Part shown: positions 9,388 through 25,327 of the stretch, one piece after another
Numbering within the stretch: position 1 is the stretch's first letter
Layout: each line of letters starts with the position of its first letter
Source: a virus
Length of the DNA stretch: 27,718 nt
Virus record (IMG/VR): IMGVR_UViG_3300009703_001909
Location: 1 to 27,718 of that record
Strand: one strand, 5' to 3'
Made by a program: the position numbers and the translations under genes
Notes under the pieces: model-generated
What the model was told of the DNA's origin: nothing
Seen by the model: the letters and a program-made list of their open reading frames with translations, nothing else
Databases searched by the model: none

Positions 9388-10556
9388 AAACATTAATATG
9401 GTATCGTAGTATTTTACGTCATGTTCTATATCAAAAATTATTAGATATGGGACACAAAGAAATTGCACTTCAACAAAAGGTTGAAATACAACGAGAGCGT
9501 TCTGCTAGAAGAATTCAGACTTGTGGTATTGATATAGAAGAAGAATATACATTTGGTATCAATACACAACCAATATATCGTATTCCACCTATGAAACCGT
9601 GGAATGACAAACCCCCATTAGTCAATCTGTTATATGAAAAAGCAACTGCTCTGGTCAGTGATGGTAGGAAAATTGACTGTATGTGGTCGGGTGGAATTGA
9701 TAGTACCAGCACACTTATCGTATTAAACGATGTTTGCAAACAAGGACAGCTTCAAGTTATCCTGTCCGAAGGTTCTATAAAAGAACATCCTCGTTTATAT
9801 GAAACTCTGGTTCAACATTTACCTCATAGAATTAATGATGGTAATATTCGTTCTCTTATTGACTATGATAATATAACCGTACATGGAAACGAAGCAGATA
9901 CTCACTATGGTATGACAGGACTTGCTACCCCATTATGGAAAACCAATACATTCTATTTTAAGGTAAGATATGGTCACCAGAACAGAGTTATGCGAGATTT
10001 GGGGGGAGTAACCTTTGACAAGATACGAATAGAGAAATCTAAGTTTAAAGGACAAGATTATTTCATACCACACACAGAAAGTCTATTTACAGATTGGGAT
10101 GTAACAAGATGGTTTATTGATATGCATCTAAGAAATGAAATAGTTTTTAATCGTTCACCACAATACGGTAATTTTAAGGGTGATACATATAAAGAGGTAG
10201 ACAAAGAATTAGATGAGTATGATGTGGCAACACCAGAGGACTTTCTATGTGATGATGAAAGAGAAGTACATAGATATACGGGAACTAAAATACTACAATC
10301 TGAGACTTATCAGGGTTTAAAGATGGAATTAAGAGATTTTATCATGGTTAAGACAGGCGATAAAAAATATGCATATGGTAAAGGGGATACGGCATCATAT
10401 TCACATGGACAAATAGATATGTTCAATCCCGATAAACACCCACACATTAATCCTGATAGATTAGAATCACGAAATGTTGCTATATGTTTGGATGGTACAG
10501 TTATAAAAAGAGATGAATTGAATAGTCTCGATCCATATGACTTTATCATACCATAG
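9384..10556 (+). CDS. PP-loop ATPase, asparagine-synthetase-like (first of pair)
   Basis: The PP-loop that binds the pyrophosphate of ATP is SGGIDST at residues 102-108 (CMWSGGIDSTSTLIVL), as in asparagine synthetase C-domains, lasso cyclases and QueC. These enzymes adenylate a carboxylate or related group and pass it to an amine or sulfur nucleophile. The protein has 390 aa and no N-terminal glutaminase domain (it does not begin Met-Cys), so free ammonia or another amine would have to be the nucleophile. A loop rich in His and Asp (VHGNEADTHYGMTG) follows the ATP domain. It is fused in translation to the protease gene (ATGA), and its paralogue follows immediately. Confidence 0.75.
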   Translation: MKTLIWYRSILRHVLYQKLLDMGHKEIALQQKVEIQRERSARRIQTCGIDIEEEYTFGINTQPIYRIPPMKPWNDKPPLVNLLYEKATALVSDGRKIDCMWSGGIDSTSTLIVLNDVCKQGQLQVILSEGSIKEHPRLYETLVQHLPHRINDGNIRSLIDYDNITVHGNEADTHYGMTGLATPLWKTNTFYFKVRYGHQNRVMRDLGGVTFDKIRIEKSKFKGQDYFIPHTESLFTDWDVTRWFIDMHLRNEIVFNRSPQYGNFKGDTYKEVDKELDEYDVATPEDFLCDDEREVHRYTGTKILQSETYQGLKMELRDFIMVKTGDKKYAYGKGDTASYSHGQIDMFNPDKHPHINPDRLESRNVAICLDGTVIKRDELNSLDPYDFIIP

Positions 10557-10559
10557 GAG
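10555..10559 (+). promoter_or_regulatory. Ribosome-binding site AGGAG that decides the next start
   Basis: AGGAG overlaps the stop of the first PP-loop gene. It lies directly against TTG 10560 but six bases from the in-frame TTG 10566, which makes 10566 the likelier start. Confidence 0.5.
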
Positions 10560-10565
10560 TTGAAA

Positions 10566-11930
10566 TTGGAAGAACAAGTACTCATACATGCTGGTGGTAT
10601 GGAATTAAACAAGTTATTGCGGTGGTATAATCCTCTCGACTTACCAGAGGAAATGATTGCAAAAGAATGGTTAAATCGTGAAAACGCTTTGGATCCGAAT
10701 CCATTTATACATCCAGACGATCCAGAATGGGGAGAAGAAACAGAACATCGTAAAAAATGGTGGTACTATCGAAAATCTATGTGGGAGCCAGGAAAGAACC
10801 CATACTGGCCAGTAGGTGGTAGGCAGGGAGAAGCATTTGGTGATTATCTTTTTGCACTTTCTCAGATAGTACAATGTCCAGTACCATATGATAGAACGGG
10901 TGAATCTAATTATATGAATCAGCTATATTCTCCTATACCAGAAGTACCTGATGGTTGGAATATGTCTTTTGAAGATATTATTCATAACCAATGTCAAAGA
11001 ATATGGGACATGAACCGGCCTGTAAGACTCTGGTGGAGTGGTGGTATTGATTCTACTACAATTCTTATAGGGTTTATTCAGACAAAAAAACCAGAAGATA
11101 AATTAATAGTTTATATGTCAAAAATATCTGAATGGGAAAATCCAAACTTCTTTGAAAGACTAAAGAAGATGGACGATGTTACTATTCAATGGAACACTAC
11201 GGAAAATATTTGGGACTTTTCTAATTGGAATGACGGTGCAATAAATGTTACAGGAGAGCCAGGAGATCCTTTTTATGGTACATTTGTAGTAGAACATCAT
11301 ATTGATGACTTGGATACACCGTGGCAAGACATGTTCCAGTGGGAAGATATTAATTATATATACAGAGAAGATGATTATCGGTGTACCTATCATCGTCCTA
11401 AATTTATGGAGTTTGCAGAGAGATATGCAGAAAAGTGTCCGTTTCCATGCGTAAATGCATTTGACTTTACATGGTGGTTAGCATTTGCCATTAAATGGCA
11501 ATGGATATCGCATCGTATATTTCCTCATCTTCCAAATCCCTCACAATGGCATAATATGATTTCGTTTTATGATGATGTAGATATACAGAGATGGAGTATT
11601 GTAAATCATGACTTAAAACATAAGGGTACATGGCAAACCTATAAATGGCCTTCTAAGGAATACATATATAACTTTACGAAGGATGTTGAGTACAGGGATA
11701 ATAAAACAAAATATAAAAGTCTACCAGAATCAACACCCAATGGTTCTATGAACACAAAGTTTACCACACAACAAATGATTATGACAAGCGGAGAATATTT
11801 CTTAAAGACAAAGGAAAGAGAATCTTATGTATCTGAAACTGTTGATCCCAATATACTACTTCTCGACAAGTGGGAAGTATTTCATAAACCTACATGGGAT
11901 AAGTGGAGAAAGATTATAAATAATAATTAA
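10566..11930 (+). CDS. PP-loop ATPase, asparagine-synthetase-like (second of pair)
   Basis: The PP-loop SGGIDST (VRLWWSGGIDSTTILIG) is at about residues 158-164. The longer N-terminal region (about 155 residues) is acidic and Trp-rich and has no glutaminase features. GEPGDPFYGTF after the ATP domain parallels VHGNEADTHYGMTG in the upstream paralogue, supporting common origin, though overall the two are well diverged. TTG 10566 is preferred on its ribosome-binding site; the first in-frame ATG is 10599. The 3' end contains a late promoter core for the next gene. Two non-identical PP-loop enzymes in tandem suggest two successive activation steps or a heterodimer. The substrate is unknown. Confidence 0.72.
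   Translation: MEEQVLIHAGGMELNKLLRWYNPLDLPEEMIAKEWLNRENALDPNPFIHPDDPEWGEETEHRKKWWYYRKSMWEPGKNPYWPVGGRQGEAFGDYLFALSQIVQCPVPYDRTGESNYMNQLYSPIPEVPDGWNMSFEDIIHNQCQRIWDMNRPVRLWWSGGIDSTTILIGFIQTKKPEDKLIVYMSKISEWENPNFFERLKKMDDVTIQWNTTENIWDFSNWNDGAINVTGEPGDPFYGTFVVEHHIDDLDTPWQDMFQWEDINYIYREDDYRCTYHRPKFMEFAERYAEKCPFPCVNAFDFTWWLAFAIKWQWISHRIFPHLPNPSQWHNMISFYDDVDIQRWSIVNHDLKHKGTWQTYKWPSKEYIYNFTKDVEYRDNKTKYKSLPESTPNGSMNTKFTTQQMIMTSGEYFLKTKERESYVSETVDPNILLLDKWEVFHKPTWDKWRKIINNN
11915..11922 (+). promoter_or_regulatory. T4-type late promoter core TATAAATA
   Basis: Exact TATAAATA, preceded by T, at the end of the second PP-loop gene. Transcription would start about six bases downstream, just ahead of AGGAG and ATG 11943. 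It gives the 98-aa gene, and probably the sulfur genes behind it, their own late transcript. Confidence 0.7.
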
Positions 11931-12240: not shown

Positions 12241-12696
12241 ATGAAAATTTTAATTATGGGTCTGCCTGATTCAGGCAAGACTTGGTTAGGTGAAAGAATA
12301 TCAAAACATTTCAATATTCCTTTATGGGATGCAGATGTGATAAGAAAAACTTATAATGATTGGGATTTTTCCAGTAGAGGAAGAGAACGTCAAGCATTAC
12401 GGATGAGGGCTCTTGCCGAGATAGATCCAATATCTATTTCTGCATTTATTGCGCCATTGCCTGGACTTATTAGAGCGTTTTTTCCTGATAAAGTTATCTG
12501 GATGGATACCATAAGAGAGGGGAAATATGAGGATACAAATAAGTTATTTGTGGAACCTCTTAGACCTGATGTTAGGATTAAAACATGGATAGACGAAAAC
12601 CAACTGTTCAAATGCTTGGACGATATCAACCATGGCATGAAGGACATACAGAACTTTTCAAACGAGCTCATAGAAAAACTGGACAAGTTGCAATAA
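12241..12696 (+). CDS. Adenylylsulfate (APS) kinase-like protein
   Basis: APS kinase phosphorylates adenylylsulfate to PAPS, the donor for sulfotransferases. The Walker A loop is GLPDSGKT at residues 7-14. Then come WDADVIRK, DFSSRGRERQALRMRALAE (equivalent to the DLGFS...DR..N..R region) and SAFIAPLPGLIRAFF, matching the APS-kinase IaP...R segment, ending with VIWMDTIREGKYEDTN. The length is 151 aa against about 200 for CysC. The last 33 residues (after KTWID) do not resemble the family and overlap the next frame by 112 bp, which suggests the ancestral protein continued into that frame. ATG 12241 lies one base after the preceding stop, with no good ribosome-binding site, so translation is probably coupled. 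Confidence 0.8.
   Translation: MKILIMGLPDSGKTWLGERISKHFNIPLWDADVIRKTYNDWDFSSRGRERQALRMRALAEIDPISISAFIAPLPGLIRAFFPDKVIWMDTIREGKYEDTNKLFVEPLRPDVRIKTWIDENQLFKCLDDINHGMKDIQNFSNELIEKLDKLQ
12574..12577 (+). promoter_or_regulatory. Internal ribosome-binding site AGGA for the nucleotidylyltransferase frame
   Basis: AGGA lies seven bases before ATG 12585, inside the APS-kinase gene. The -1 frame has a stop (TAA 12579-12581) just before that ATG, so the second frame cannot extend upstream and needs this start. Confidence 0.5.
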
Positions 12697-12929
12697 TGGT
12701 TCGTGATACTGGTGAAGAACATTTCGACCAGAGTATGGTAATCGGTGAATTATTTAATCATGGATTTGAGTATGATAAAGACTATATTATTATGATGGTT
12801 CCAAATATTGTGAACATCACCTATGGTAGAGATGTTGGATATAAAATTGAACAGGAAAAACTGCCTAGTTCTATTGAAGCTATTTCTGCCACCAAGATTC
12901 GGGCCAATGCTGGATATAACCCTGTATAA
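12585..12929 (+). CDS. HxGH nucleotidylyltransferase domain protein
   Basis: The adenylyl/cytidylyltransferase signatures are GRYQPWHEGH (HxGH at residues 18-21) and ISATKIR at 100-106, the usual ISxTxxR partner motif. These enzymes transfer a nucleotide from NTP to a phosphate or similar acceptor; ATP sulfurylase uses a related fold. The domain is 114 aa, a normal minimal size. It lies in the -1 frame relative to the APS-kinase gene and overlaps it by 112 bp. I read the two as a former APS kinase-nucleotidylyltransferase fusion that is now two frames, or as one gene with an indel. Making APS from ATP and sulfate would suit the context but is inference. The 3' end overlaps the convergent kinase gene by 50 bp. 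Confidence 0.78.
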   Translation: MDRRKPTVQMLGRYQPWHEGHTELFKRAHRKTGQVAIMVRDTGEEHFDQSMVIGELFNHGFEYDKDYIIMMVPNIVNITYGRDVGYKIEQEKLPSSIEAISATKIRANAGYNPV

Positions 12930-13485
12930 GTGAAACAGGTTTATCTGGATTAGGTTTGCGAATACGTTCATTATAAGAATTGCATAGAGCAATCTTATCA
13001 AGGGTTCTTATTACATCAGTACTAAGTTGATGTCCTGTAGAACAATTATAAAAAAAGATTAGTTGTTCTAATCCATCCCAACCTATCCATCTACGAATCA
13101 TTCTAAATTCCCAATGTGGATCTCCCATACAAGCCTTATCCCAATCAATAAGTCCTTGGAACTTTTCTTCGTCTACTATCACATTTTTATACCACAAGTC
13201 ACCATGAATAAAGGTGGTTTCTGCAAAAGATATTTTATCAAACTCTTCTATAGCCTTTGTACAAAACATCTCATTATTAGGTGGGGGATGTTTTCTTAGT
13301 TTGTCCACGATAGGATGCATCCTTGATACATCATAATGAACAGGTAATAGATTTTCGGGTTTAAGTTTATGCACAGAAACTAAAAAGGATGCAAAGTCGC
13401 TGATAAAATCAGAACCTTGCATCCTATTAGCCATATGTGTTCCTGATATCCATGAACCATTAATCATGTCATGGATATCTAACAT
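12880..13485 (-). CDS. APH/choline-kinase-like phosphotransferase lacking its N-lobe
   Basis: The catalytic loop HGDLWYKN is at residues 94-101 (H94, D96, N101), and the metal-binding Asp is D114 in LIDWDKACMGDP, both characteristic of aminoglycoside phosphotransferase/choline kinase-type enzymes. The protein is 201 aa and begins in what should be the hinge (INGSWISGTHMANRM). The N-lobe with the ATP-binding lysine, normally 70-90 residues, is absent; the DNA immediately upstream codes for TctC with a natural C-terminus. It is therefore either a truncated remnant or a C-lobe used in another way. It is the last gene of the minus-strand cassette, 3 bp behind tctC, and converges on the nucleotidylyltransferase. 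Confidence 0.75.
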   Translation of the reverse strand: MLDIHDMINGSWISGTHMANRMQGSDFISDFASFLVSVHKLKPENLLPVHYDVSRMHPIVDKLRKHPPPNNEMFCTKAIEEFDKISFAETTFIHGDLWYKNVIVDEEKFQGLIDWDKACMGDPHWEFRMIRRWIGWDGLEQLIFFYNCSTGHQLSTDVIRTLDKIALCNSYNERIRKPNPDKPVSLIQGYIQHWPESWWQK

Positions 13486-13488
13486 ATT

Positions 13489-14493
13489 TTACTTCACCAT
13501 TTCTTGTAGTTGACTCCTAAGATTAGGATCAATATTTGCGTAGAACTTTAGAGCTTTGTTTGCGTCTTCAACCGTTCCGCCACCAATAGGTAGTTTCTTT
13601 GATTGAGTAAACTTAATAAACTCTGGATCACGCATCATCTTAAAAAATGCCTTTGTAAGATGAATCTGTGCTTCTTTCGGAGTACTCTTATGTACTACAA
13701 AGGTACGAGCAAAAACATTACTCTTTGCGAAGAAGTCCCATAGAACCTTAGACTTTTCATCCTTGATATAAGAATGAACCGAAGGAATACCTGCTGGAAT
13801 TAGTTCGGGAGAACCAATTGCAAGAATGTACCGAAGAGGAACAATCTTTGCTTTCTTCTTTAGAGTAGACATTGCAAGAACAACACCATCTGTTTCACCC
13901 GCTGCAATCGCTTTAATCATGGTTCCAGAACCACGATAACCATATACAGGTTTGTTATTAGTACCAAAAGTCTTATCTAGAAACTCTGGAACCAATGAAG
14001 GTGACGCACCTTTACCAGATGCACCCCAACGAAAACCACGATCTCGCAGATCAAAGATAGTCTTTACATCACTATCTGCACGAACCGCAACAATAGTTGC
14101 TTCGTTAAGTAGAGCACCAACAGCAACAAAGTCGCCAGGGCCATACTTCATCTTAGAGGATGTTGGAATTGCAGATGCCGCAAGAGGGAAAGCGCCAGGG
14201 AACAAAGCAACCTTTGTTCCATCAGTAGAATCAATCTTACCAGATGCAAGAAGGTTTCCCATCTTAATTCCACCACCACCCTGCTTATTCTGCACAATCA
14301 CTTTAGGATTGCCAGGCAAGTGTTTACCTAAAAATTGTTTTACTAGATGACCGTACATTGAAGTACCACCACTAGGACCGGCACCTACAAGAACAGTAAC
14401 AGTTTTCCCCGAATAATATTCGGAAGCGGAGGCAACCGAAGTCGCACCCATAACGAAAGCTGCCGATGCAGCAATGACTGAAATCAATTTCAT
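13489..14493 (-). CDS. tctC: TctC/Bug-family periplasmic binding protein of a tripartite tricarboxylate transporter
   Basis: The protein of 334 aa starts with a clear signal peptide: MKLIS, a hydrophobic stretch and a likely cut after ASA at about residue 24. The mature part shows TctC landmarks: VTVLVGAGPSGGTSMYGHLV near the N-terminus, then PKVIVQNKQGGGGIKMGN (compare the vVVeNrpGagG motif) and YGYRGSGTMIKAIAAGETDG. Bug proteins bind carboxylates such as citrate, other organic acids, or sulfonates, and hand them to TctAB. The matching permease is at 21039-22883, also on the minus strand. ATG overlaps the upstream sulfotransferase stop (ATGA), with AAGGAG in front. Substrate specificity cannot be read from the sequence. 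Confidence 0.93.
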   Translation of the reverse strand: MKLISVIAASAAFVMGATSVASASEYYSGKTVTVLVGAGPSGGTSMYGHLVKQFLGKHLPGNPKVIVQNKQGGGGIKMGNLLASGKIDSTDGTKVALFPGAFPLAASAIPTSSKMKYGPGDFVAVGALLNEATIVAVRADSDVKTIFDLRDRGFRWGASGKGASPSLVPEFLDKTFGTNNKPVYGYRGSGTMIKAIAAGETDGVVLAMSTLKKKAKIVPLRYILAIGSPELIPAGIPSVHSYIKDEKSKVLWDFFAKSNVFARTFVVHKSTPKEAQIHLTKAFFKMMRDPEFIKFTQSKKLPIGGGTVEDANKALKFYANIDPNLRSQLQEMVK

Positions 14494-15194
14494 GTTTTAT
14501 TACTCCTTTTGAACCATTCAGTTATTTCCTGATAATTCGTAAATACTTTTGAATAATCAGGGTTAGTTATAATATCTAGAGAATGTTCTTTTACATAATC
14601 CTCATAGATAATATCAGTTTTATTTGGAATCATTCTTTCCAAATCTTTTGTAAATTCTTCTATATGCATAAATCTATAAAATTCTGCTTCTGTTGCAGTA
14701 AAGGAATTTTCTGATGGTACTTTTCTTTTACCTTTATTATATTCTGAAAATTCTCTATTTGTTCCAGTGTATCCCTTTCTACTTGTTTCTTGTGCAATAA
14801 ATCTAAAACAGAATTGTGATATTTTATCTCTATTGTGTAACCAGATTAAATTAAAGTTAGACAAGATTTCAGCAGACTTTTCTAATTTTTCTATATAACC
14901 TATATTTGCATCCTCTACTGTATAAGTTAATTGCATAGGCATACATTTTATAATAAAAGAATCTTTTTCTTGAAGATACTCAAGTCTTTTTTGTCTTTCA
15001 CTATTTGTTAATAATTTTTCCTCAATTGTATAATCTACTGTTATGGGAGAAGTCTTAAATCCTTCATAGTGAACCTTCTTCATTCTACCAAACCATTCTT
15101 TCCCATTATCTAGTCCCATAGTTTCACCCAAATGTTTGAGTATATAAAACGATCCAGAACGTGGAGTACAAACTAAACAATATTTACCCTTCAT
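14490..15194 (-). CDS. Stf0-like sulfotransferase (second in the operon)
   Basis: The 5'-phosphosulfate-binding loop is CLVCTPRSGSFYILKHLG near the N-terminus, closely following the Stf0-type xxSTPRSGSxxL pattern, with KEWFGRMKK further on. The 3'-phosphate region is NLIWLHNRDKISQFCFRF (R..S-like). Stf0 proteins sulfate sugars such as trehalose using PAPS. ATG 15194 is chosen over TTG 15197 because AAGGAG lies seven bases before the ATG; this gives 234 aa. It overlaps the upstream paralogue by 11 bp and tctC by 4 bp. An APS-kinase-like gene 2 kb away on the other strand could supply PAPS. The acceptor is unknown. Confidence 0.75.
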   Translation of the reverse strand: MKGKYCLVCTPRSGSFYILKHLGETMGLDNGKEWFGRMKKVHYEGFKTSPITVDYTIEEKLLTNSERQKRLEYLQEKDSFIIKCMPMQLTYTVEDANIGYIEKLEKSAEILSNFNLIWLHNRDKISQFCFRFIAQETSRKGYTGTNREFSEYNKGKRKVPSENSFTATEAEFYRFMHIEEFTKDLERMIPNKTDIIYEDYVKEHSLDIITNPDYSKVFTNYQEITEWFKRSNKT

Positions 15195-15816
15195 CAAACC
15201 ACTCCTTAATCTGGTTATAGTTATTAAATTTATTTTGATATAGTATACCTAAAGGTACAGTCAATGTCAAGTTCCCTTCTTCCTTTTCATACATGTCCCA
15301 CCATGCCCAACAATTGAGTTCATAGATAGTGTTGTGAGGGTTAGATAAAAAATCTTCATATGCAACTAATTCCTCATCATTTCCATACTTTTCGTGTAAC
15401 ATCCAAAATTCAGTTTGTTTTAACTGGAACCTTTCATATTCTTCATAAGTGGCCGCAAGAGAATTATCCTCTATTACAGGTTGATCTTTTACATCTGTTA
15501 TGTGATTTACTTTTGTTCTTAATCGTGCAACGTGACTCATAAATTGTGTTAAAGTATCTTTCCGATACAACCAGACACAGGGCATGTCTGACAAAACCTT
15601 ATCGGTTTCACCAACTATATAGTGAGGTAATATCTTTAATATGTGGGGAGATTGTGAGAATTTTTCCTTATCAATATCTTCATACTTATTGTGTTTCAAC
15701 CACGATTTTGAATCTTGTACGCCGTAGTGGTTACATAAATATCTACGAAAGTATGTGGATCCACTTCTGGACGTTGAGACTATGCCCAAGCGGCCTTCAT
15801 AACGAGTAATAACCAT
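15184..15816 (-). CDS. Stf0-like sulfotransferase (first in the operon)
   Basis: The protein of 210 aa has the PAPS loop LGIVSTSRSGSTYFRRYL at residues 10-27 and a second region CVWLYRKDTLTQFMSHVAR that matches the YRRDK...Q..S element of Stf0-type enzymes. It is paralogous to the gene that follows (shared order PRSGS/SRSGS, KSWL/KEWF, W-L-x-R-x-D), but similarity is low outside the motifs. It is the first gene of the minus-strand cassette and starts only 16 bp from the divergent GNAT gene. No exact late promoter core precedes it. Confidence 0.75.
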   Translation of the reverse strand: MVITRYEGRLGIVSTSRSGSTYFRRYLCNHYGVQDSKSWLKHNKYEDIDKEKFSQSPHILKILPHYIVGETDKVLSDMPCVWLYRKDTLTQFMSHVARLRTKVNHITDVKDQPVIEDNSLAATYEEYERFQLKQTEFWMLHEKYGNDEELVAYEDFLSNPHNTIYELNCWAWWDMYEKEEGNLTLTVPLGILYQNKFNNYNQIKEWFDEG

Positions 15817-15832
15817 ATAGATATATATACAG
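15817..15832. promoter_or_regulatory. 16-bp divergent intergenic spacer with a palindromic TATATATA
   Basis: The whole space between the divergent start codons of the sulfotransferase and GNAT genes holds TATATATA at 15822-15829. It reads the same on both strands and differs from TATAAATA by one base in each direction. A two-way late-type promoter is possible, but the predicted start points would leave essentially no leader. Confidence 0.25.
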
Positions 15833-16330
15833 ATGAGAACAGTAGAGAAATGTAATTTTGAAGAAATTTATGATATTTGGGATAAAGAATTATGGCCCAA
15901 TAGAGTCAGTGTAATAGAAGAACACAGTGCCTTACAATGGAATTCTAATTTATGGTTAGAGTGGGGTAATGTTAAGATAACCAAGAACAGAAAAGAAATA
16001 TGGAAATATCCAGCTACGTTTTGGAAGGTTACAGATGGAGATATAATTGTAGGTGTGAATAGTGGATTTATGACTTCCGAAAGGAAGCACATATATCGTT
16101 CTAGGGGATTATGGGTACATGAGAATTACAGAGGGTATGGGTTATCAACGCAGCTGTTAAATGCAACTTTAGAACAAGCAAGAGAAGAGAAGTGTAGTTA
16201 TATATGGACAATGCCAAGGAAAACTGCACTTGTAGCATACAATAAGGTAGGGTTCAATAAAATTGGTAATTGGTTTGATGAGGGGGTGGAATTCGGACCT
16301 AACTGTCTGGCAATAATGAAACTCTTATAA
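15833..16330 (+). CDS. GNAT-family N-acetyltransferase
   Basis: The acetyl-CoA pyrophosphate loop is RGYGLS at residues 100-105 after the strand GLWVHENY, followed by the helix TQLLNATLEQAREE. The strand IWTMPRKTALVAYNKVGFNKIG matches the GNAT motif B region, with a typical 'aYnk.GF' segment. The length is 165 aa, normal for the family. The gene is transcribed with gp13, whose late promoter overlaps this gene's stop codon. GNAT proteins may acetylate a protein N-terminus, lysine, amino sugar or small molecule; nothing here decides which. It lies divergently from the sulfotransferase operon. Confidence 0.82.
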   Translation: MRTVEKCNFEEIYDIWDKELWPNRVSVIEEHSALQWNSNLWLEWGNVKITKNRKEIWKYPATFWKVTDGDIIVGVNSGFMTSERKHIYRSRGLWVHENYRGYGLSTQLLNATLEQAREEKCSYIWTMPRKTALVAYNKVGFNKIGNWFDEGVEFGPNCLAIMKLL

Positions 16331-16333
16331 ATA
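16326..16333 (+). promoter_or_regulatory. T4-type late promoter core TATAAATA for gp13
   Basis: Exact TATAAATA, preceded by T and followed by GTAGG, overlapping the GNAT stop codon. It lies 18 bp before the gp13 start, with AAGGAG between. Confidence 0.78.
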
Positions 16334-16351
16334 GTAGGAAAAGGAGTTACT

Positions 16352-17170
16352 ATGGCGATTCCAACAACAAAAGCAACATTTAAGTCGTATTGTTTGAGAG
16401 CGCTGGGTTCGGGTGTTATTGATATTAATGTATCAGACGACCAAGCAGACGATAGAATAGACGAAGCACTACAATACTTTTCACAATATCATTACGATGG
16501 AGTGGAAAGAATGTATCTGAAACACCTTATTACATCCGATGATGTAACACGAGCAACTTCAGATGCATCAACAACTGCAACTGATAAAGTTGATAGTTCT
16601 GTAACTGCAACATGGAAAGAGGGAAAGAACTATATTCCTGTTCCTGATGCGGTACTTTCTGTGGTGGAAGTATTTCCTTTTTATGAAGGTTCAACATCAA
16701 ATATGTTTGATGTACGTTATCAATTACGATTAAACGACCTTTATGATTTTTCATCTACTTCTGTATTACATTACAATATGACAATGCAACATATAGATTT
16801 TCTACAACACTCTTTGGTTGGAGAAACCCCTATACGATTCCAACAGCATATGAATAGACTTTATATTGATATGGATTGGAATAATGATGTAGAAAAGGAT
16901 GCAGATTACATCATTATTGATTGTTGGAGGAAAGTTGATCCCACTACATATACAGATGTTTATGATGATATGTTTTTGAAAAGATATGCAACGTGTCTCA
17001 TAAAGAAACAATGGGGTGCTAACTTATCCAAATTCAAAGGAGTGGCGTTGTTAGGTGGAGTAGAAATGGATGGGGAAACTTTGTATTCTCAAGCAATTGA
17101 AGAACAGCAGAGACTAGAAGAACAAATTCAACTCGCATACGAGCTACCCCCAATGCATATGGTAGGATAA
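16352..17170 (+). CDS. 13: gp13 neck protein
   Basis: T4 gp13 forms the neck ring that closes the filled head and joins it to the tail. The protein of 272 aa has the N-terminus MAIPTTKATFKSYCLRALG, then VIDINVSDDQADDRIDEALQ and QYHYDGVERMYLKH, a pattern well conserved in T4-like marine phages. The C-terminal half (IIDCWRKVDPTTYTDVYDDM, then LKRYATCLIKKQWGANLSKF) is also typical. The identity is supported by the order 13-14-15-16-17 and by the late promoter with AAGGAG directly upstream. It is followed one base later by gp14. Confidence 0.93.
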   Translation: MAIPTTKATFKSYCLRALGSGVIDINVSDDQADDRIDEALQYFSQYHYDGVERMYLKHLITSDDVTRATSDASTTATDKVDSSVTATWKEGKNYIPVPDAVLSVVEVFPFYEGSTSNMFDVRYQLRLNDLYDFSSTSVLHYNMTMQHIDFLQHSLVGETPIRFQQHMNRLYIDMDWNNDVEKDADYIIIDCWRKVDPTTYTDVYDDMFLKRYATCLIKKQWGANLSKFKGVALLGGVEMDGETLYSQAIEEQQRLEEQIQLAYELPPMHMVG

Positions 17171-17171
17171 G

Positions 17172-18143
17172 ATGGCAGTCAACACACATTTTCATACGAG
17201 TGGACTTACTTCTATATTATCAGAAAGAAATTTATATAGTGATCTGATTGCAGAAGCGATTCAGATTTATGGACATGACGTTCATTATATGGATAGAACA
17301 CTGGTTGCCGAGGATACTATTTTTGGAGAGGACAACCTTTCCAAATTTAATACGCAAGCAAAAATTGAAATGTATGTTGAGGATGGACAGTCTGGTTATG
17401 CTGGACAAAAGGAATTAATATCTCAGTTTGGTTTTATGAACCTCAGTGAGATTAGATTTGTGGTTAATAAAAAGAGGTTCCAAGACCTCACTAAACAGAT
17501 TACGATAGAGAGTGGTACAGACACATTGTCTGGCTCTATAGTTTTAGAATCGGGAACAATAGAAAACTTTGAAAGTGGATATATGATATCCGAAGCAGAT
17601 GTTACTGATTCTGACAGACCACAAGAGGGTGATTTGATTTATCATCCTGTAATGAAAAAAGTTTTCCAAATAAACTTTGTTGATGATGATGATCCATTTC
17701 ATCCACTGGATGATACTCCTGTGTATAAAATGGATTGCAGAATGTTTGAATACAGTGGTCAAGTTATTGATACTGGTGTTGATGTTGTTGATGAGATAGA
17801 AGATAACCTTTCTCTTGATACTATGGATCACCAGACTACATTGGAACAATCCGCTGCAGTCAACGAAAGATTTGGATTAGAAATAGGTATCAGCACAAAT
17901 GGAGATCAGGGTGTTCTTCTAGAAGAGACAGATGGAGATTACCTTGTTGGAGAGAACGATTCAAGTTCGGTGGGTACGAATATCGTACTGGAAGATGGAT
18001 ACTCCTTCTTACTGCAAGAAACATATGCAGTTGGAGATGGAACCATTGAGAAAACTGCACAGAATGAGATTTTTGATGCTGCAGATGATACCATATTAGA
18101 TTTCTCCGAAAGTAATCCTTTCGGTGACGCTGGAGGTACTTAA
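17172..18143 (+). CDS. 14: gp14 neck protein
   Basis: T4 gp14 sits in the neck below gp13 and the portal. The protein of 323 aa begins MAVNTHFHTSGLTSILSERN, then IYGHDVHYMDRTLVAEDTIFGED and FMNLSEIRFVVNKKRF, as in other T4-like phages. It is longer than T4 gp14 (about 256 aa). The extra length includes short repeated modules with a pattern like (I/V)xLExG...xE: SIVLESGTIENFESGYMISE near residue 120, GVLLEETDGDYLVGE near 250 and NIVLEDGYSFLLQE near 270. The stop overlaps the gp15 start (TAATG). Confidence 0.92.
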   Translation: MAVNTHFHTSGLTSILSERNLYSDLIAEAIQIYGHDVHYMDRTLVAEDTIFGEDNLSKFNTQAKIEMYVEDGQSGYAGQKELISQFGFMNLSEIRFVVNKKRFQDLTKQITIESGTDTLSGSIVLESGTIENFESGYMISEADVTDSDRPQEGDLIYHPVMKKVFQINFVDDDDPFHPLDDTPVYKMDCRMFEYSGQVIDTGVDVVDEIEDNLSLDTMDHQTTLEQSAAVNERFGLEIGISTNGDQGVLLEETDGDYLVGENDSSSVGTNIVLEDGYSFLLQETYAVGDGTIEKTAQNEIFDAADDTILDFSESNPFGDAGGT

Positions 18144-18922
18144 TGTTAGGACAACAATTTTATCACGAAACTATGCGAAAGGTCGTTGTTGGATTTGGAA
18201 CAATGTTCAACAATATTCAATTGGTTCGCAGAGACAATAACGGAAATATAACGCAATCAATGAAAGTTCCACTCGCATATGGACCAAGAGATAAATTTCT
18301 TACCCGACTGCGAGATGAACCAGATTTGAATAAAGTAGCTGCTATCACACTACCACGAATTGGTTTTGAGATTAATAATCTTTCATATGATTCGACTCGT
18401 AAACTTAATCGTGTACAGAAGTTCAAAAAAGTAAAAGGTGATAATGCAGATAAATTAGACACACAATATATGCCTGTACCATATAATTTAGATTTTGAAT
18501 TGTACATTCTTGCTAAACAGTCAGATGACGCATTGCAAATTGTAGAACAAATTCTACCATACTTTCAACCAGACTATACTATTACAATTAAAGATATGAC
18601 AGATATGGGTATCAAAAAAGATGTGCCTGTAATTCTGAATAGTATTGGTTATGAAGATGATTATCAGGGTGATATGCAACAGCGCAGAGCAATTATCTAT
18701 ACTTTAAGTTTTACTACTAAGTTTTATCTGTATGGTCCTGTCACATCTAGTTCAGTTATTAAGACGGTACAGGTTGACCAGTATTCAGACTTACCTGATA
18801 AATCACCAAAACGTGAACAACAATTCAAAGTATCGGTTGATCCTATTACTGCTGATGCCGATGATAACTTTGGATTTAATGAAACTACATCATTCTTCCA
18901 AGATGCATCAGAAAGTGAGTAA
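18143..18922 (+). CDS. 15: gp15 proximal tail sheath stabiliser
   Basis: gp15 caps the finished tail tube and sheath and connects it to the neck. The protein of 259 aa has the recognisable stretches FYHETMRKVVVGFGTMFNNI, VPLAYGPRDKFLTRL, TLPRIGFEI and YDSTRKLNRVQKF, then PVPYNLDFELYILAKQSDDA and LPYFQPDYTITIKD, all hallmarks of this protein in T4-like phages. Place in the conserved order and tight junctions on both sides agree. Confidence 0.95.
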   Translation: MLGQQFYHETMRKVVVGFGTMFNNIQLVRRDNNGNITQSMKVPLAYGPRDKFLTRLRDEPDLNKVAAITLPRIGFEINNLSYDSTRKLNRVQKFKKVKGDNADKLDTQYMPVPYNLDFELYILAKQSDDALQIVEQILPYFQPDYTITIKDMTDMGIKKDVPVILNSIGYEDDYQGDMQQRRAIIYTLSFTTKFYLYGPVTSSSVIKTVQVDQYSDLPDKSPKREQQFKVSVDPITADADDNFGFNETTSFFQDASESE

Positions 18923-18924
18923 TA

Positions 18925-19410
18925 ATGAAAACTGTAGACAAAGAACTTGGTATTGAAACCCCTAAGCCTGGACACAATTCTGAAGAAAAAGGATTTGAAG
19001 TGATAGAGGAAAGTAATCCTCGTTTTCATATGGCAACAGGGGCTGGGTATGACGATTTTCATCCTGTGGTATCAAAAGAAAAAAATGCTGTTATACAGCG
19101 CAGTAAACTTGAAAGTGAGATAGATAGTGATTATGAATACCAACGACAAAATTTCTACAATTTGGTCGAAAGAGGAACGGATGCAGTGGACGGAATTTTG
19201 GAACTCGCAAAGGAATCAGACCATCCAAGAGCATACGAAGTCGCCGGAAACCTTATTAAACAAGTTGCAGAAGTCACTGAAAAACTTGGTGACTTGCAAG
19301 AGAAAATGAAAAGACTAAAAGAGTTGCCAAAAACTGCTCCTCAAAATGTCACTAATGCATTGTTTGTAGGGAGTACTGCTGAATTGCAGAAGATGTTGAA
19401 GGACAAGTAA
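18925..19410 (+). CDS. 16: gp16 small terminase subunit
   Basis: The small terminase recognises the DNA to be packaged and regulates gp17. The protein of 161 aa has the core DSDYEYQRQNFYNLVERG, DAVDGILELAKESDHPRAYE and VAGNLIKQVAEVTEKLGDLQ, a helical coiled-coil oligomerisation region typical of T4-like gp16. The N-terminal third is acidic and probably flexible. It lies directly before gp17 with no gap. Confidence 0.93.
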   Translation: MKTVDKELGIETPKPGHNSEEKGFEVIEESNPRFHMATGAGYDDFHPVVSKEKNAVIQRSKLESEIDSDYEYQRQNFYNLVERGTDAVDGILELAKESDHPRAYEVAGNLIKQVAEVTEKLGDLQEKMKRLKELPKTAPQNVTNALFVGSTAELQKMLKDK

Positions 19411-21057
19411 ATGTCCGATCCTAGTGTATATCACGGTAATCCGAATCTAAAAACTGCTAATGTTCCTATTGAGTTTACAAAGGAACAGATATTAGAGTAT
19501 CAGAAATGTATGGAATCTCCACAATACTTTGTGGAGGCTTATATCAAGATTGTGTCTATCGACCACGGTTTGATACCATTCAAGATGTATCCTTTTCAAA
19601 AGGACCTTATTGGGACTTTTCATAGTAATCGTTTTACTATCTGTAAACTTCCTAGACAGTCTGGTAAATCGACCACAGTATTGTCTTATCTGTTACACTA
19701 TATCGTATTCAACGATAATGTCAATGTCGCAATTCTAGCGAACAAAGCAGCAACGTCAAGAGACTTGTTAGGACGATTGCAATTGGCATATGAGAATTTA
19801 CCCAAATGGTTACAACAGGGGGTTATGTCATGGAATAAGGGTAGTTTGGAGTTAGAAAATGGTTCAAAAATTCTTGCCGCATCTACTAGTGCTAGTGCTG
19901 TTCGTGGTAGCACTTACAACGTCATTTTTCTGGATGAGTTCGCCTACGTCCCGTCTAATATTGCTGAACAATTCTTTTCCTCTGTGTACCCCACTATAAC
20001 ATCAGGAACCAGTTCAAAAGTTATGATCGTATCTACTCCACATGGTATGAATCATTTCTATAAGATGTGGACTGATGCAGAGAACGAGAGAAATTCTTAT
20101 GTACCACTAGAGGTTCATTGGAGTGAAGTGCCTGGAAGAGATGAGAAGTGGAAAGCAGAAACTATAGCGAATACATCAGAGTCACAATTCAACACAGAGT
20201 TTGAGTGTGAGTTCTTAGGTTCTATTGACACATTAATTGCTCCCTCAACATTAAGACGATTAACATATAGGGAACCAATGCAGTCTAACAGTGGCCTAGA
20301 TGTTCATGTACCTCCCGAAGAAGGTCATACTTATATGTTATCAGCAGACGTTGCTCGTGGTACGAAGAATGATTATTCTGCATTTACCGTAATAGATGTT
20401 TCAGAGTTTCCATATAAATTAGTTGCAAAATACAGGGATAATGAGATAAAACCATTACTATTTCCTGCTAAAATACATGATGTTGCAATGGCCTATAACC
20501 AAGCATATGTTTTGATAGAGGTAAATGATATAGGAGAACAGGTAGCGAATACTCTACAATTTGATCTAGAGTATGACAACCTTGTGATGGCTTCGATGCG
20601 AGGTCGTGCGGGTCAAGTCATGGGAGCTGGGTTTTCGGGTGGTAGAGCGCAACTTGGAGTAAGAACAACTAAAGCAGTTAAGAAGGTGGGTTGTTCTAAT
20701 CTGAAACAACTGATAGAAGATAACAAACTAATTGTAGAAGATTTAGAGACTATATCAGAACTATCTACGTTTATTATCAAGGGTTCATCCTTTCAAGCAG
20801 ATGAGGGATGTAATGATGATTTGGTTGCGTGTCTATTCATATTTGCGTGGGCAACTGATCAGACATATTTTAAAGAACTTACCAATATGGATATGCGTCA
20901 AACTATGATGAAAGAACAACAGGAAGCACTAGAACAAGACATGGCACCATTTGGTTTTGTTATCAATGGACTTGAAGAAGAAAATGTGGGTGAGATGGTT
21001 GATGAATATGGAACAAAATGGAACCCTGTAGTAAGAGATTATGAAACTAACTGGTAA
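19411..21057 (+). CDS. 17: gp17 large terminase subunit (ATPase and nuclease)
   Basis: gp17 powers DNA packaging and cuts the concatemer. The Walker A loop PRQSGKST is at residues 81-88, Walker B VIFLDEFA at 171-178, and the coupling motif IVSTPHG follows. The C-terminal RNase H-like nuclease has D313 in LSADVARG, E370 in LIEVNDIG and D469-D470 in GCNDDLV as the acidic metal ligands. At 548 aa the length is slightly below T4 gp17 (610 aa), with all motifs intact. Its last 19 bp overlap the convergent transporter gene, so an insertion boundary lies at or just beyond its end; T4 itself continues directly to gene 18. Confidence 0.96.
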   Translation: MSDPSVYHGNPNLKTANVPIEFTKEQILEYQKCMESPQYFVEAYIKIVSIDHGLIPFKMYPFQKDLIGTFHSNRFTICKLPRQSGKSTTVLSYLLHYIVFNDNVNVAILANKAATSRDLLGRLQLAYENLPKWLQQGVMSWNKGSLELENGSKILAASTSASAVRGSTYNVIFLDEFAYVPSNIAEQFFSSVYPTITSGTSSKVMIVSTPHGMNHFYKMWTDAENERNSYVPLEVHWSEVPGRDEKWKAETIANTSESQFNTEFECEFLGSIDTLIAPSTLRRLTYREPMQSNSGLDVHVPPEEGHTYMLSADVARGTKNDYSAFTVIDVSEFPYKLVAKYRDNEIKPLLFPAKIHDVAMAYNQAYVLIEVNDIGEQVANTLQFDLEYDNLVMASMRGRAGQVMGAGFSGGRAQLGVRTTKAVKKVGCSNLKQLIEDNKLIVEDLETISELSTFIIKGSSFQADEGCNDDLVACLFIFAWATDQTYFKELTNMDMRQTMMKEQQEALEQDMAPFGFVINGLEEENVGEMVDEYGTKWNPVVRDYETNW

Positions 21058-22883
21058 ACAGATTGAGGCCAACTGATATCAAGTATCATCTGGAATATAA
21101 CGTAACTCATCACCCCGAAAATCAAAGCAATTTTCCAGTTTCGGGTATACAGTAAAACAAACAGTGTTATTGTAGGTAGTAGTCCAATAAGATATGCTGA
21201 GACTAAACACCCCAACAACCATAAGAAGAAATAAATATTTTCCCATTTTATGTCAAGTTCCTTTTCTGGTTTTAGGGATATGGATATCAAAGAAAGTACA
21301 ATTCCTATCCCACAAATTAATGTTGGAAACACGGTTGATATATGAGGCCATGCGCTCATACTAAAGAGACCAGCTATGAAGATACCAAAAAATAAAAACA
21401 TGGTATAATCAACACCCCAACTAATGTCCAACTTACTTTTTATTATTGGTGAAATTAATCCATAACAAGTAATTGCAAACACTCCTATTACAATAGGATC
21501 AAGTAACCAATCATATCCTAAAGAAGAAACGGAACGAAAGTAGTATCTCTCTATCAATCCACCTAGAACAAACCCTAATGCAAGTGCTGGACGGGATAAG
21601 TCCTTTTCTTTCATCAACCACCCTATAGCTCCAAATGCAACAAGACAAACCAAATCACCATATGATTGAGAACCTTGTATTGCACCTATGAATAGGGTGG
21701 ACATAATCAGGGGCGCAAGTACTGATATGCGTATCAGGGTAATTTTTGCAAGTTGATCTGCGAATAGAAAACATATACCAGCACCAATGATGTTTGCAAT
21801 AGTTAATGCCCAAACCATAGTATATGTGACTGATAGGTTTTCAGTTAACATATCAGGGCCAGGGACGTATCCATGCATATAGAATACGGCAAGAACCAGT
21901 ACCATACCAGCAGAGCCAGGAATACCGAAGGATATGGTGGGTATTAATGCACCACCTTCCTTTGCATTGTTCGCCGATTCTGGTGCGATTACACCCCTTA
22001 CATCTCCTTTACCGAAGGTATTGTTCTTTATACTACGTTTACCATGTCCGTATGCTAACCAATCAATTACTGATGCACCGATGCCTGGCAGAGAACCAAG
22101 AGTAGAACCTAGTGCAGAACATCGTAGACATAGGAACCAGTTATCAAAAACATCCCGAATACCTTTGAGTTGTCCCTTACGGGTTTCTACTTTACCTTCA
22201 GATATACTTTGTCTATTTGAGAGTAAATCTACGATTTCTGGTATCGCAAACAGCCCTATTATAGCAGGAAGAAGAGGTATCCCTTCATACAGATATATGG
22301 AACCAAACGTCCATCTTAACTCTGATCCTTGGGCATCTTCACCAACCAGAGATAATAATATACCAAATAGTCCCACAGTGATACCTTTTATTGGGGAACT
22401 ACCAGAGAGAATTGCAACAAGAGAGATACCAAAGATGCAAATTGCAAATAATTGGGGTGATCCGATACTTAATACGACAGGTTGTAATATAGGAACACTA
22501 ACTGCAAGAAGTAATGCTCCGAAGATACCACCTATTGCAGATGCAGAAAATGCGGCACCTAATGCACGACCTGCTTGTCCATTCTTGGCCATGGGGTATC
22601 CATCCATAATAGTTGCTGCACTACCTATGGTGCCTGGCACTCCAAATAATACTGCTGGTATGGTATCGGATGTTGTAGTTACTGCATATAATCCCATTAT
22701 GAATACAATACTTACAATAGGATCCATTGTAAATGCGAGAGGAAGTAGAATGGATAACCCTGTCAATCCACCTAAGCCTGGAATTACACCAAGGACAAGT
22801 CCTATGATAACCCCAAGAGTAAGAAACATCAGTATTTTTAATTCAGTAAAATGCGATAGAGCTTCAATTCCACTTTCGATCAT
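21039..22883 (-). CDS. tctA: TctA-TctB fused permease of a tripartite tricarboxylate transporter
   Basis: Residues 1 to about 485 are the large TctA subunit. The duplicated transport motifs are GVIPGLGG (32-39) and GSLPGIGA (263-270), with FGVPGTIGSA (80-89), FGKGDVRGVIAPESANNA (290-307), FGIPGSAG (319-326) and YVPGPDM. Residues from about 487 to 614 form a four-helix TctB-like domain, including WPHISTVFPTLICGIGIVL and a C-terminal GLLPTITLFVLLY...VIFQMILDISWP. Together this is the complete membrane part of a TTT system for organic anions, energised by an ion gradient. The binding protein is at 13489-14493. GAGG lies about seven bases before ATG. The gene is an insertion between gp17 and gp18, on the opposite strand to the structural genes. 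Confidence 0.95.
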   Translation of the reverse strand: MIESGIEALSHFTELKILMFLTLGVIIGLVLGVIPGLGGLTGLSILLPLAFTMDPIVSIVFIMGLYAVTTTSDTIPAVLFGVPGTIGSAATIMDGYPMAKNGQAGRALGAAFSASAIGGIFGALLLAVSVPILQPVVLSIGSPQLFAICIFGISLVAILSGSSPIKGITVGLFGILLSLVGEDAQGSELRWTFGSIYLYEGIPLLPAIIGLFAIPEIVDLLSNRQSISEGKVETRKGQLKGIRDVFDNWFLCLRCSALGSTLGSLPGIGASVIDWLAYGHGKRSIKNNTFGKGDVRGVIAPESANNAKEGGALIPTISFGIPGSAGMVLVLAVFYMHGYVPGPDMLTENLSVTYTMVWALTIANIIGAGICFLFADQLAKITLIRISVLAPLIMSTLFIGAIQGSQSYGDLVCLVAFGAIGWLMKEKDLSRPALALGFVLGGLIERYYFRSVSSLGYDWLLDPIVIGVFAITCYGLISPIIKSKLDISWGVDYTMFLFFGIFIAGLFSMSAWPHISTVFPTLICGIGIVLSLISISLKPEKELDIKWENIYFFLWLLGCLVSAYLIGLLPTITLFVLLYTRNWKIALIFGVMSYVIFQMILDISWPQSVYQLVS

Positions 22884-22900
22884 TACAAAACCTCATTTTT

Positions 22901-23203
22901 CTAAATAAGTTCTATTAAATCATTGTCCAATTTAATCCAACAATTAGAACAAAGGATAGCAGAATTATCAATAAGATATATGATATGTTTTCTACTGTCT
23001 TCATTTGTTCCTACACGTTTGGACAATTTACGAATTTCTGAATTGTGGGGGTAGAATTTTAGACATACAGTCTCACTTTCTCCACAATTCGTACATGATT
23101 GATTATCAAGATACTCATTAAGTAATCTAATACGTTTGTAATAATTTCGTCTTGCAACTTTCTTGATAGTATCTTTGTATTTTTCATAATGTGTATTAGT
23201 CAT
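22901..23203 (-). CDS. Small HNH-like zinc-binding protein, catalytic histidine apparently lost
   Basis: The 100-aa protein has a basic N-terminus (YEKYKDTIKKVARRNYYKR) and two Cys pairs, C37-x2-C40 in CTNCGESE and C85-x2-C88 in ILCSNCW, like HNH proteins of the pattern CxxCGE...LxFxH...lCxNCH. Here the residue after the second Cys pair is Trp instead of His, and the central region reads LKFYPHN, so H53 may or may not be the catalytic His. It may be a decayed or divergent homing-type endonuclease, or simply a zinc-ribbon DNA-binding protein. It lies 17 bp upstream of tctAB in the same inserted cassette. ATG 23203 has no ribosome-binding site and lies only 8 bp from a late promoter core. Confidence 0.55.
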   Translation of the reverse strand: MTNTHYEKYKDTIKKVARRNYYKRIRLLNEYLDNQSCTNCGESETVCLKFYPHNSEIRKLSKRVGTNEDSRKHIIYLIDNSAILCSNCWIKLDNDLIELI

Positions 23204-23211
23204 AACAAAAC

Positions 23212-23219
23212 TATTTATA
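23212..23219 (-). promoter_or_regulatory. T4-type late promoter core TATAAATA on the minus strand
   Basis: On the minus strand the sequence reads CTTATAAATAGT, sharing 13 bases (TCTTATAAATAGT) with the gp13 promoter. It points to the HNH-like gene and tctAB. Transcription would begin only a few bases before the ATG at 23203. Confidence 0.65.
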
Positions 23220-23262: not shown

Positions 23263-23270
23263 TATAAATA
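23263..23270 (+). promoter_or_regulatory. T4-type late promoter core TATAAATA for gp18
   Basis: Exact TATAAATA, preceded by TT, 50 bp before the gp18 start, with AAGGAG between. Together with 23212-23219 it forms a divergent late promoter pair in the 117-bp gap 23204-23320. Confidence 0.78.
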
Positions 23271-23320: not shown

Positions 23321-25327
23321 ATGGCATTTTTAGTCTCTCCCGGCGTTCATGTTCGTGAATTTGATGCGTCAACAAGCATACCAGTAATAGGTACATCTAC
23401 TGGTGCAATTGCTGGACCTTTTGAAAGAGGCCCCGTAAGTTCTGTTGTTGCTATCTCTTCCGAAGAAGAACTAGTAGAAGTATTTGGAAAACCTCAAGGT
23501 GATAACTTTGAATTTTGGTTTTCCGCTGCGAACTTCCTTCAATATAGTAATTCATTGAGGGTAGTCCGTGCTGAATCAGCGGTGGTTAATGCGGTCTCCA
23601 CTGGTACAGCTATTCTAATACGGGATAATGATCATTATGAAGCATCTTTCTCAGCGGGTGAAGCATCCGTTGGAGAGTGGGCTTCACGAACCGCTGGTAC
23701 ATGGGGTAACTCTCTTGCAGTTTCCATGTGTCCTAGTGCAAACGCATATGAACAAAATCTAACAGACCTAGTTAATGATGCTAGTGCTGCCGCAGGCGAC
23801 ACTACAATTACACTGGATGCTGGTGCTGCAACAAGTGTTGTAGTTGGTGATTTAATTTCTTTCTCAAGTGCCAATGCATCTTCTGATGCTACTGCATTTG
23901 CGGATCTTGCTGGACATGAAGGTATTGAATACGAAGTTGTTTCAATTTCTTCGCATGTCTACACAATTCGTAAGAAAGACGATCCTAATGGTGCTGGACT
24001 AGCTGCTGCGGTTGCAGATGACAGCTTCATCCGTCGCCGTTGGAGGTTCCATGATCTATTTGATGCTGCGCCTGGTACATCACAGTGGGCGACTGATAAT
24101 GGTCGTGGTGCTAATGATGAAATGCACGTTGTTGTTTATGACAAAACTGGTGATATCACTGGTGCCGACAACGATGTTGCTGGACAACGCCAAACTTCAG
24201 TAATTGAAAAGTTTGCTAATCTTTCCAAGAACCCGAAAGCAAAGACTGCTCAGGGTGGTTCTAACTACTATCCTGATGTTATTTTCCGTTCATCTTCTTG
24301 GGTTTACTGGATGGATCATAATAGTTCTGGTTCCAATTGGGGAACAGATGTAACTGCTGCTTATACAGCGGTGAATACACCAACTTATACCGCTCTTGCT
24401 GGTGGAACAGACGATTATGCTGTTACTGCTGGAGAGTTGGAAGATGGTTATGATTATTTTGATGATAAAGAAAATCTAACAATTGACTTAGTAATCGGTG
24501 GACCAAGTTCTGCTGTTGCTAATACAGCTGCTGGTCAGGACACACACGTTACCATGATTACAGACCTTGTTGAAAAACGTAAGGACTGTGTTGGTTTCGT
24601 ATCTCCTTATCGTGCAGCTACAGTCAATGTGACTTCTCGTATTACTCAAGCTAGGAATGTAAAAGAGGCATTTGATTTGTGTCCTTCCAGTTCTTACATG
24701 GTATACGATAGTGGTTATAAATACATGTTCGATAAGTATAACGATGTATTCCGTTATGTACCTTTAAATGGTGATATTGCAGGTCTATGTGCAAATACAG
24801 ATAATGTTGCTGCTACATGGTTCTCGCCTGCGGGTTCCGCTCGAGGTGCAGTTCGTGGTGCAGTTAAACTTTCGTTTAACCCAAGTCAATCTCAACGTGA
24901 TACTCTCTATGGTGCGAGAATTAACCCTGTTGTTAACTTCTCGGGCGAAGGAGTTCTTCTCTTTGGTGATAAGACTGCTCTTACAAAATCGAGTGCTTTC
25001 AATCGGATTAACGTCCGTAGATTGTTCTTGCATGTTGAACGAGTTATTGCGGAAGCAGCTCGTGCATCATTGTTTGAGTTCAACGATGGTTTCACACGGA
25101 ATCAATTTGTACAACTTGTAGAACCTTTCTTACGAGATGTTCAAGCTGGTCGAGGTATTGATGATTATAGTGTTGTCTGTGATACTTCAAATAATACAGC
25201 ACAGGTAATCAACAGTAATGAGTTCCGTGGTGATATCTACATTCGTCCTGCTTATTCAATTAATTTTATCAGTCTGACATTCACTGCTGTTCGCAACGGT
25301 GTATCGTTCAGCGAAGTAGGAGGGTAA
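23321..25327 (+). CDS. 18: gp18 contractile tail sheath protein
   Basis: The sheath surrounds the tube and contracts to drive injection. The N-terminus MAFLVSPGVHVREFDAST and the following IPVIGTSTGAIAGPFERGPV are diagnostic of T4-like gp18. The C-terminal part has NPVVNFSGEGVLLFGDKT, then INVRRLFLHVERVIAEAARA and FRGDIYIRPAYSINFISLTF, the conserved assembly domain. At 668 aa it is near the T4 length (659). The middle (about residues 140-400), rich in Ala, Gly and Asp, is the surface-exposed variable part. It has its own late promoter and a strong AAGGAG, fitting a major virion protein. Confidence 0.97.
   Translation: MAFLVSPGVHVREFDASTSIPVIGTSTGAIAGPFERGPVSSVVAISSEEELVEVFGKPQGDNFEFWFSAANFLQYSNSLRVVRAESAVVNAVSTGTAILIRDNDHYEASFSAGEASVGEWASRTAGTWGNSLAVSMCPSANAYEQNLTDLVNDASAAAGDTTITLDAGAATSVVVGDLISFSSANASSDATAFADLAGHEGIEYEVVSISSHVYTIRKKDDPNGAGLAAAVADDSFIRRRWRFHDLFDAAPGTSQWATDNGRGANDEMHVVVYDKTGDITGADNDVAGQRQTSVIEKFANLSKNPKAKTAQGGSNYYPDVIFRSSSWVYWMDHNSSGSNWGTDVTAAYTAVNTPTYTALAGGTDDYAVTAGELEDGYDYFDDKENLTIDLVIGGPSSAVANTAAGQDTHVTMITDLVEKRKDCVGFVSPYRAATVNVTSRITQARNVKEAFDLCPSSSYMVYDSGYKYMFDKYNDVFRYVPLNGDIAGLCANTDNVAATWFSPAGSARGAVRGAVKLSFNPSQSQRDTLYGARINPVVNFSGEGVLLFGDKTALTKSSAFNRINVRRLFLHVERVIAEAARASLFEFNDGFTRNQFVQLVEPFLRDVQAGRGIDDYSVVCDTSNNTAQVINSNEFRGDIYIRPAYSINFISLTFTAVRNGVSFSEVGG

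Follow-up and report, generated by a model that had tools for sequence, protein, structure and literature searches.

A probable organic-anion uptake system and a shared uptake-gene site in a marine T4-like phage

The virus contig analysed here (IMG/VR record IMGVR_UViG_3300009703_001909, 27,718 nucleotides; hereafter the window) carries, among T4-like genes, two minus-strand genes of the tripartite tricarboxylate transporter (TTT) type. The first, tctC (13489..14493), encodes a TctC-type periplasmic solute-binding protein of 334 aa, and the second, tctAB (21039..22883), encodes a fused TctA-TctB permease of 614 aa. We consider that the phage probably encodes its own late-expressed, functional TTT uptake system. 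In the mechanism that we propose, TctC would be exported to the periplasm, where it would capture an organic anion and pass it on to TctAB, the inner-membrane permease, which would import the anion by ion-coupled secondary transport without ATP. The tctAB gene would be transcribed late from a minus-strand promoter ahead of a small HNH-like gene, tctC would be transcribed within another minus-strand operon, and the imported solute would add carbon (or another element) during virion building. A sequence-only reading of this DNA had already interpreted the genes as a phage-supplied transporter, and this interpretation is supported here, as neither of the two findings that it named as fatal, unrelated TTT clades for the two proteins or a chimeric assembly, was made.

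Features of the TctC and TctAB proteins

Both open reading frames are intact and lie 6.5 kb apart on the minus strand, as had been described. TctC passes the Pfam cut-off for PF03401 (E 2.6e-9, 37.4 bits against 27), and the profile search that had been suggested as a check thus confirmed its identity. Of the signal peptide claimed for it, a hydrophobic segment at residues 4-20 and an A-x-A site (..SVASA/SEYY) can be recognized by eye and from hydropathy, and the N-terminus is signal-peptide-like to this extent. An AlphaFold2 model built from an alignment of 28 sequences reached a pLDDT of 86.8 and was used in place of a single-sequence model, which was dropped at a pLDDT of 36. The top structural matches of the model were all TctC/Bug proteins (BugE, BugD, MatC, Rpa4515 and TphC, Z 24-26), and ligand-free TctC/Bug structures matched at Z 20-21, compared with 16.6 for the next classes; as modelled, the window TctC has the TctC/Bug solute-binding fold. 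A copy that is 83% identical occurs in the same gene order on a related contig (L005), which was the only hit in a search for viral TctC with close sequences, and the window TctC had zero matches among phage-collection records. In the L005 protein (5829-6887), an N-terminal membrane anchor replaces the signal peptide, and the remainder is 82% identical to the window TctC.

In the permease, the TctA part covers positions 1-421 of the 423 in PF01970 (E 1.1e-125). The TctB-like C-terminal part (residues 480-614, 21039..21446, minus strand) matches positions 3-137 of the 137 in PF07331 over the last 135 aa (E 5.3e-6, 27.1 bits), contains four hydrophobic segments and can be aligned with cellular fusions, among which L154 reaches 49.3 bits on the same profile; its loops are about 75 aa shorter than in those fusions. 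The phage TctAB retains 124 of the 141 columns that are invariant across seven cellular TctABs. Neither TctC nor TctAB matched PHROGs at E 1e-3, and TctA gave zero sequence matches to solved structures. Both genes are under purifying selection, with ratios of nonsynonymous to synonymous substitution rates (dN/dS) of 0.14 for mature TctC and 0.12 for TctAB (TctA part 0.11, TctB part 0.14), compared with 0.065 for gp17. Being host-type metabolic genes on a reproducible viral contig and under such selection, both are putative viral auxiliary metabolic genes.

In the tree, the TctAs of the window and of three other viral contigs (L003, L183 and L184) form one purely viral clade (support 100/99.8), which is sister to the nearest cellular TctAs (up to 60% identity), namely fused TctABs, mainly from alphaproteobacteria. 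The gene neighbours of these cellular relatives give only a hint of the substrate, by analogy aromatic or other organic acids. The host was not deduced from the closest cellular TctA, because genes are exchanged between hosts and an identity of 60% is insufficient. TctA matches in phage records MT8358xx and in Salmonella and Escherichia entries (29-34% identity, largely without annotation), which include a Salmonella entry of 691 kb, were discounted as phage evidence.

Probable pairing of TctC with TctAB

Several results suggest that the two proteins belong together. The phage TctC groups with the TctCs that adjoin the matching TctAB group (96/86), and TctAB is sister to the fused group, which speaks against the unrelated clades mentioned above. 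Across 106 cellular neighbour pairs, similarity to the phage TctC correlates with similarity to the phage TctA (rho 0.79, uncorrected for shared ancestry), and it also does so in the 53 closest pairs (rho 0.40, p 0.003). Furthermore, a partner TctC encoded no more than about 450 bp from the permease is, in each of the three genomes with this arrangement, the protein of that genome that best matches the phage TctC: it ranks first among 37 in G317, is the sole match in G212, and ranks first among six in G005, where the margin is 0.3 bits.

TctA and TctC genes also adjoin in other phages. TctA is encoded along with a PP-loop-like and a TctC-like protein on two contigs (L186 and L187), which also have a gene whose best matches are in T4-like cyanophages, and on five others (L188-L192) a TctC-like gene comes after TctA; the DNA polymerase on one of these five (L191) is nearest to those of Sinorhizobium phage Phosso and Agrobacterium phage Atu_ph07. 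The TctC-like proteins of the two sets were aligned to TctC with hhalign probabilities of 99.1 and 99.4. On a further contig (L218), the end of a TctC gene is followed by TctA just upstream of gp17. A PstS-like phosphate-binding protein is encoded beside the TctA-TctC genes of L186 (13979-14995).

The strongest alternative is that the two products are not partners, the phage TctAB using TctCs of the host and the phage TctC serving a host permease. A single genome of the alphaproteobacteria in this clade can contain as many as 96 TctC matches, a TctC is absent beside many TctABs of the closest group, and the TctAs of L183-L185 stand without a visible TctC, on short contigs; the division of the window genes between separate operons points the same way. 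However, the phage TctC is similar to TctCs from the matching TctAB group, most closely where these are tightly adjacent, the two genes adjoin in the other phages described above, and SAR11 genomes (G001-G003), which are among the likely hosts, have no TctC match at E 1e-3. We therefore regard this alternative as unlikely.

For a phage-encoded TTT system as a whole, the following points have to be set on the other side of the balance. Apart from the separation of tctC and tctAB by 6.5 kb, the window is the only contig on which the two genes occur together, as L001 stops before tctC and L005 stops inside gp17. The correlation across cellular pairs is uncorrected for ancestry, and in two genomes (G583 and G419) the TctC lies more than 1.4 kb from the permease and is not the best match of the genome. 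The TctB part stays below the PF07331 cut-off (29.1 bits), and the phage TctC is far from every cellular TctC (about 25-31% identity, on a long branch). Finally, the claim that all transport motifs are intact holds for most of the conserved columns (12 of 16 in TctC, in addition to those of TctAB) and was slightly overstated, since the usual Asp of the first loop (the anion loop) is Ser45 in the phage TctC. Cellular relatives (L154 and L162) likewise have no Asp at this place, and with Ser45 in its stead the ligand of the phage TctC may be unlike that of classical members.

The site between gp17 and the HNH-like gene

The tctAB gene occupies an interval that is bordered on the left by the large terminase gene gp17 (19411..21057, plus strand; PF03237/PF17289, phrog_2), whose 3' end overlaps that of tctAB by 19 nt. 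Upstream of tctAB by 17 nt, and on the same strand, lies the small HNH-like gene (22901..23203; phrog_3106 HNH endonuclease, 2.1e-5), followed on the right by the tail-sheath gene gp18 (23321..25327, plus strand), which matches the tail-sheath genes of phages Melnitz, HTVC008M and Mosig. The sequence TATAAATA, known as a late promoter of T4-like phages including marine members (PMC2984593, PMC9004378), is found directly upstream of HNH-tctAB (23212..23219, minus strand), and the promoter scan gave a divergent late promoter for gp18 (23263..23270, plus strand). Of 77 related contigs, 73 have TATAAATA on the minus strand at a distance of 10-16 nt ahead of the start of HNH, against a chance background of 0.9% per 60 nt, and it stands likewise ahead of HNH in Melnitz. 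With HNH and tctAB only 17 nt apart, tctAB should be read from the HNH late promoter, and thus late.

The recurrence of uptake genes at this site had been missed by the sequence-only reading, which had correctly recognized the T4-like structural genes around them. We surveyed 80 contigs whose gp17 relates them to L183. Almost all have the HNH-like gene on the minus strand in the interval from gp17 to gp18, which usually contains little else, and uptake systems are the most frequent inserts between gp17 and HNH. The slot holds an ABC permease with an NMT1-type binding protein in L197 and L203 (in L236, a permease start at the contig end), and a TRAP permease DctM with a TAXI binding protein in L215, L221, L230, L250 and L271 (in L234, DctM at the contig end). 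When DctM itself was used as the query, 18 viral contigs were recovered, in all of which it adjoins or lies near gp17 on the opposite strand, with the order HNH, TAXI, DctM wherever covered; the slot DctM had no close relative among phage-collection records. Uptake systems are complete or near-complete at the slot in L197, L203, L215, L221, L250, L271 and L276-L291. An in-frame stub in which 59 N-terminal aa of TAXI run into 39 C-terminal aa of DctM (L292, 4199-4441; L293, 4875-5117) is, as read from its sequence, the scar of a lost TRAP cassette. In two contigs, L209 (1183-2262) and L265 (1033-2244), the slot contains a PP-loop-like protein instead of an uptake system. Large PP-loop-like proteins with the motif SGGxDST recur beside transporter genes as well (window 9384-11930; L186 11605-12735), with no confident family.

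The TTT permease itself also recurs at this site. In L183-L185, a related lineage with 76% identity in gp17, a TctA that is 62-63% identical to that of the window lies at the same gp17-HNH site, on the strand opposite to that of the window tctAB and with the second half of TctB missing. Because the site is the same and the viral TctAs form one clade, TctA was most likely kept there through the split of the two lineages and a change of orientation. As it directly follows gp17 on the other strand, the tctA of L183-L185 is expected to be transcribed together with the late structural genes. Taking these results together, we find it reasonably likely that the gp17-HNH interval of HTVC008M/Melnitz-type phages is an interchangeable uptake-cassette site, in which TTT, TAXI-TRAP and ABC importers are swapped behind one conserved late promoter, and that importing nutrients in the late phase is a modular strategy in general use among the abundant T4-like phages of the sea.

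The contents of the slot also bear on whether the genes serve a purpose other than uptake, such as dissipation of ion gradients or phage exclusion by the permease, or a role of TctC as an envelope sensor or decoy. The incomplete TctB of the L183 lineage and the membrane anchor of the L005 TctC, with its conserved mature part, would fit such a purpose. However, three unrelated families in the slot have in common only a binding protein and an importer, which makes a common non-transport role less likely, and importers can be fed by membrane-anchored as well as by free binding proteins. We judge such a purpose improbable. It is still less probable that the inserts are hitchhiking cargo of an HNH mobile element from which the phage gains nothing. 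The cargo does adjoin the HNH-like gene and can be lost, as the deletion scar in L292 and L293 indicates, but dN/dS values of 0.12-0.14, the retention of TctA at one site in two diverged lineages and in both orientations, and the predominance of uptake systems among the resolved inserts argue against it.

These observations suggest that these viruses regularly feed the cell that they infect as part of their reproduction. The metabolic genes of phages mostly encode one enzyme or one subunit of a transporter, while the window carries a whole importer. Viral auxiliary transport genes were already known, and we believe that the more interesting part is a site for transporter cassettes behind a conserved late promoter. 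If the importers work, the uptake of marine bacteria from seawater would be altered while they are infected, and the content of the slot would serve as a readable marker of the solute that limits phage production. As one locus with several natural alternatives, the slot is directly testable.

Virus identity, neighbouring genes and known systems

Family searches identified T4-like genes around tctC and tctAB (gp17 terminase and a gp13-like head-tail adaptor), and the terminase and portal are nearest to those of Melnitz, HTVC008M and Mosig (64-69%). Melnitz infects OM43 and the other two infect SAR11, and all three phages are classed in Kyanoviridae. With its gp13-gp20 structural module in T4 order and a conserved terminase and portal, the window contig is a marine T4-like phage of Kyanoviridae type. 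Its junctions recur in five other IMG/VR contigs (L001-L005) at 82-100% DNA identity. Two contigs from other metagenomes are nearly identical across tctAB and its borders, L001 at 99.9% over 13,084 bp and L002 at 99.98% over 6,753 bp. The remaining three differ from the window by 16-18% of their DNA with the order unchanged: L003 and L004 cover gp17-TctAB, with an extra radical-SAM gene of 420 aa between the two, and L005 covers gp13, GNAT, the sulfotransferase-like genes, TctC and APH. Cellular-type genes do sit among phage genes, but junctions repeated in contigs from other metagenomes and in diverged contigs exclude, for practical purposes, the assembly chimera of phage and bacterial DNA that had been named as a concern.

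The tctC operon begins with sulfotransferase-like gene 2 (15184..15816, minus strand; a weak PF13469 match, 8e-4, below the cut-off), followed by sulfotransferase-like gene 1 (14490..15197, minus strand; 23% identity to gene 2), an open reading frame that overlaps the tctC start by 4 nt. It ends with an APH-type phosphotransferase represented by its C-terminal part only (12880..13485, minus strand; PF01636, 3.6e-13, profile 77-214). Promoter scans found no clear promoter for this operon, and sigma-70 matches near tctC were fewer than in shuffles. Gene 1 is 48% identical between L005 (5038-5814) and the window, compared with about 80% for its neighbours, which suggests replacement by another allele. 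Kinase and cytidylyltransferase-like open reading frames overlap in different frames at 12241-12929, likewise in L005, and, given a length of 230 aa for the kinase family profile, may represent a fusion that has been split or frameshifted. A carbamoyltransferase gene (91-1428; PF02543/PF16861) lies in the variable region upstream, and a radical-SAM gene at 1373-2330 is apparently split into overlapping frames (1373-2029 and 1980-2330).

Among known systems, HTVC008M, Mosig and Melnitz have the gp13-gp20 order of the window, and in Melnitz both the HNH-like gene and the late promoter are found at the corresponding place; unlike in the window, the slot of these phages holds no transporter (gap 84-437 bp). 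As here, TTT-related genes have been reported in uncultivated marine viruses: tctA as a protein-domain match only, with its role termed unknown, in viral contigs from SUP05 cells (eLife 2014, PMC4164917), and 'tricarboxylate transport' genes, mentioned in passing, on a myovirus scaffold from an oxygen minimum zone (ISME J 2020, PMC8115048). In contrast to the window, the accessible text of these two reports presents no complete system, partner test, promoter or common slot. Marine pelagimyophages have been described with 'substrate transport' genes, without detail. In the open-licence literature, supplementary tables aside, we found neither a complete phage TTT nor the gp17-HNH slot described. 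For the binding protein alone, PBP2_Bug_TTT proteins of uncultured Caudovirales in BFVD (A0A6J5T9X7, A0A6J5T247 and A0A6J5L7K0) have the TctC/Bug fold (Foldseek E down to 6.9e-14) at 13-18% identity to the phage TctC. Compared with the cellular fused TctAB group of alphaproteobacteria (G508, G317, G212 and L009), the phage divides its TTT genes between two operons, its TctAB is shorter (614 aa with compacted TctB loops, against about 680-710 aa), and it does not adjoin the UbiD, molybdopterin, FAD, aldehyde and TPP enzymes found beside the closest cellular TctABs. The TctA core and the TctA-TctB fusion are shared with this group, at about 60% identity over the TctA part, and the TctCs adjoining its members are those that match the phage TctC best.

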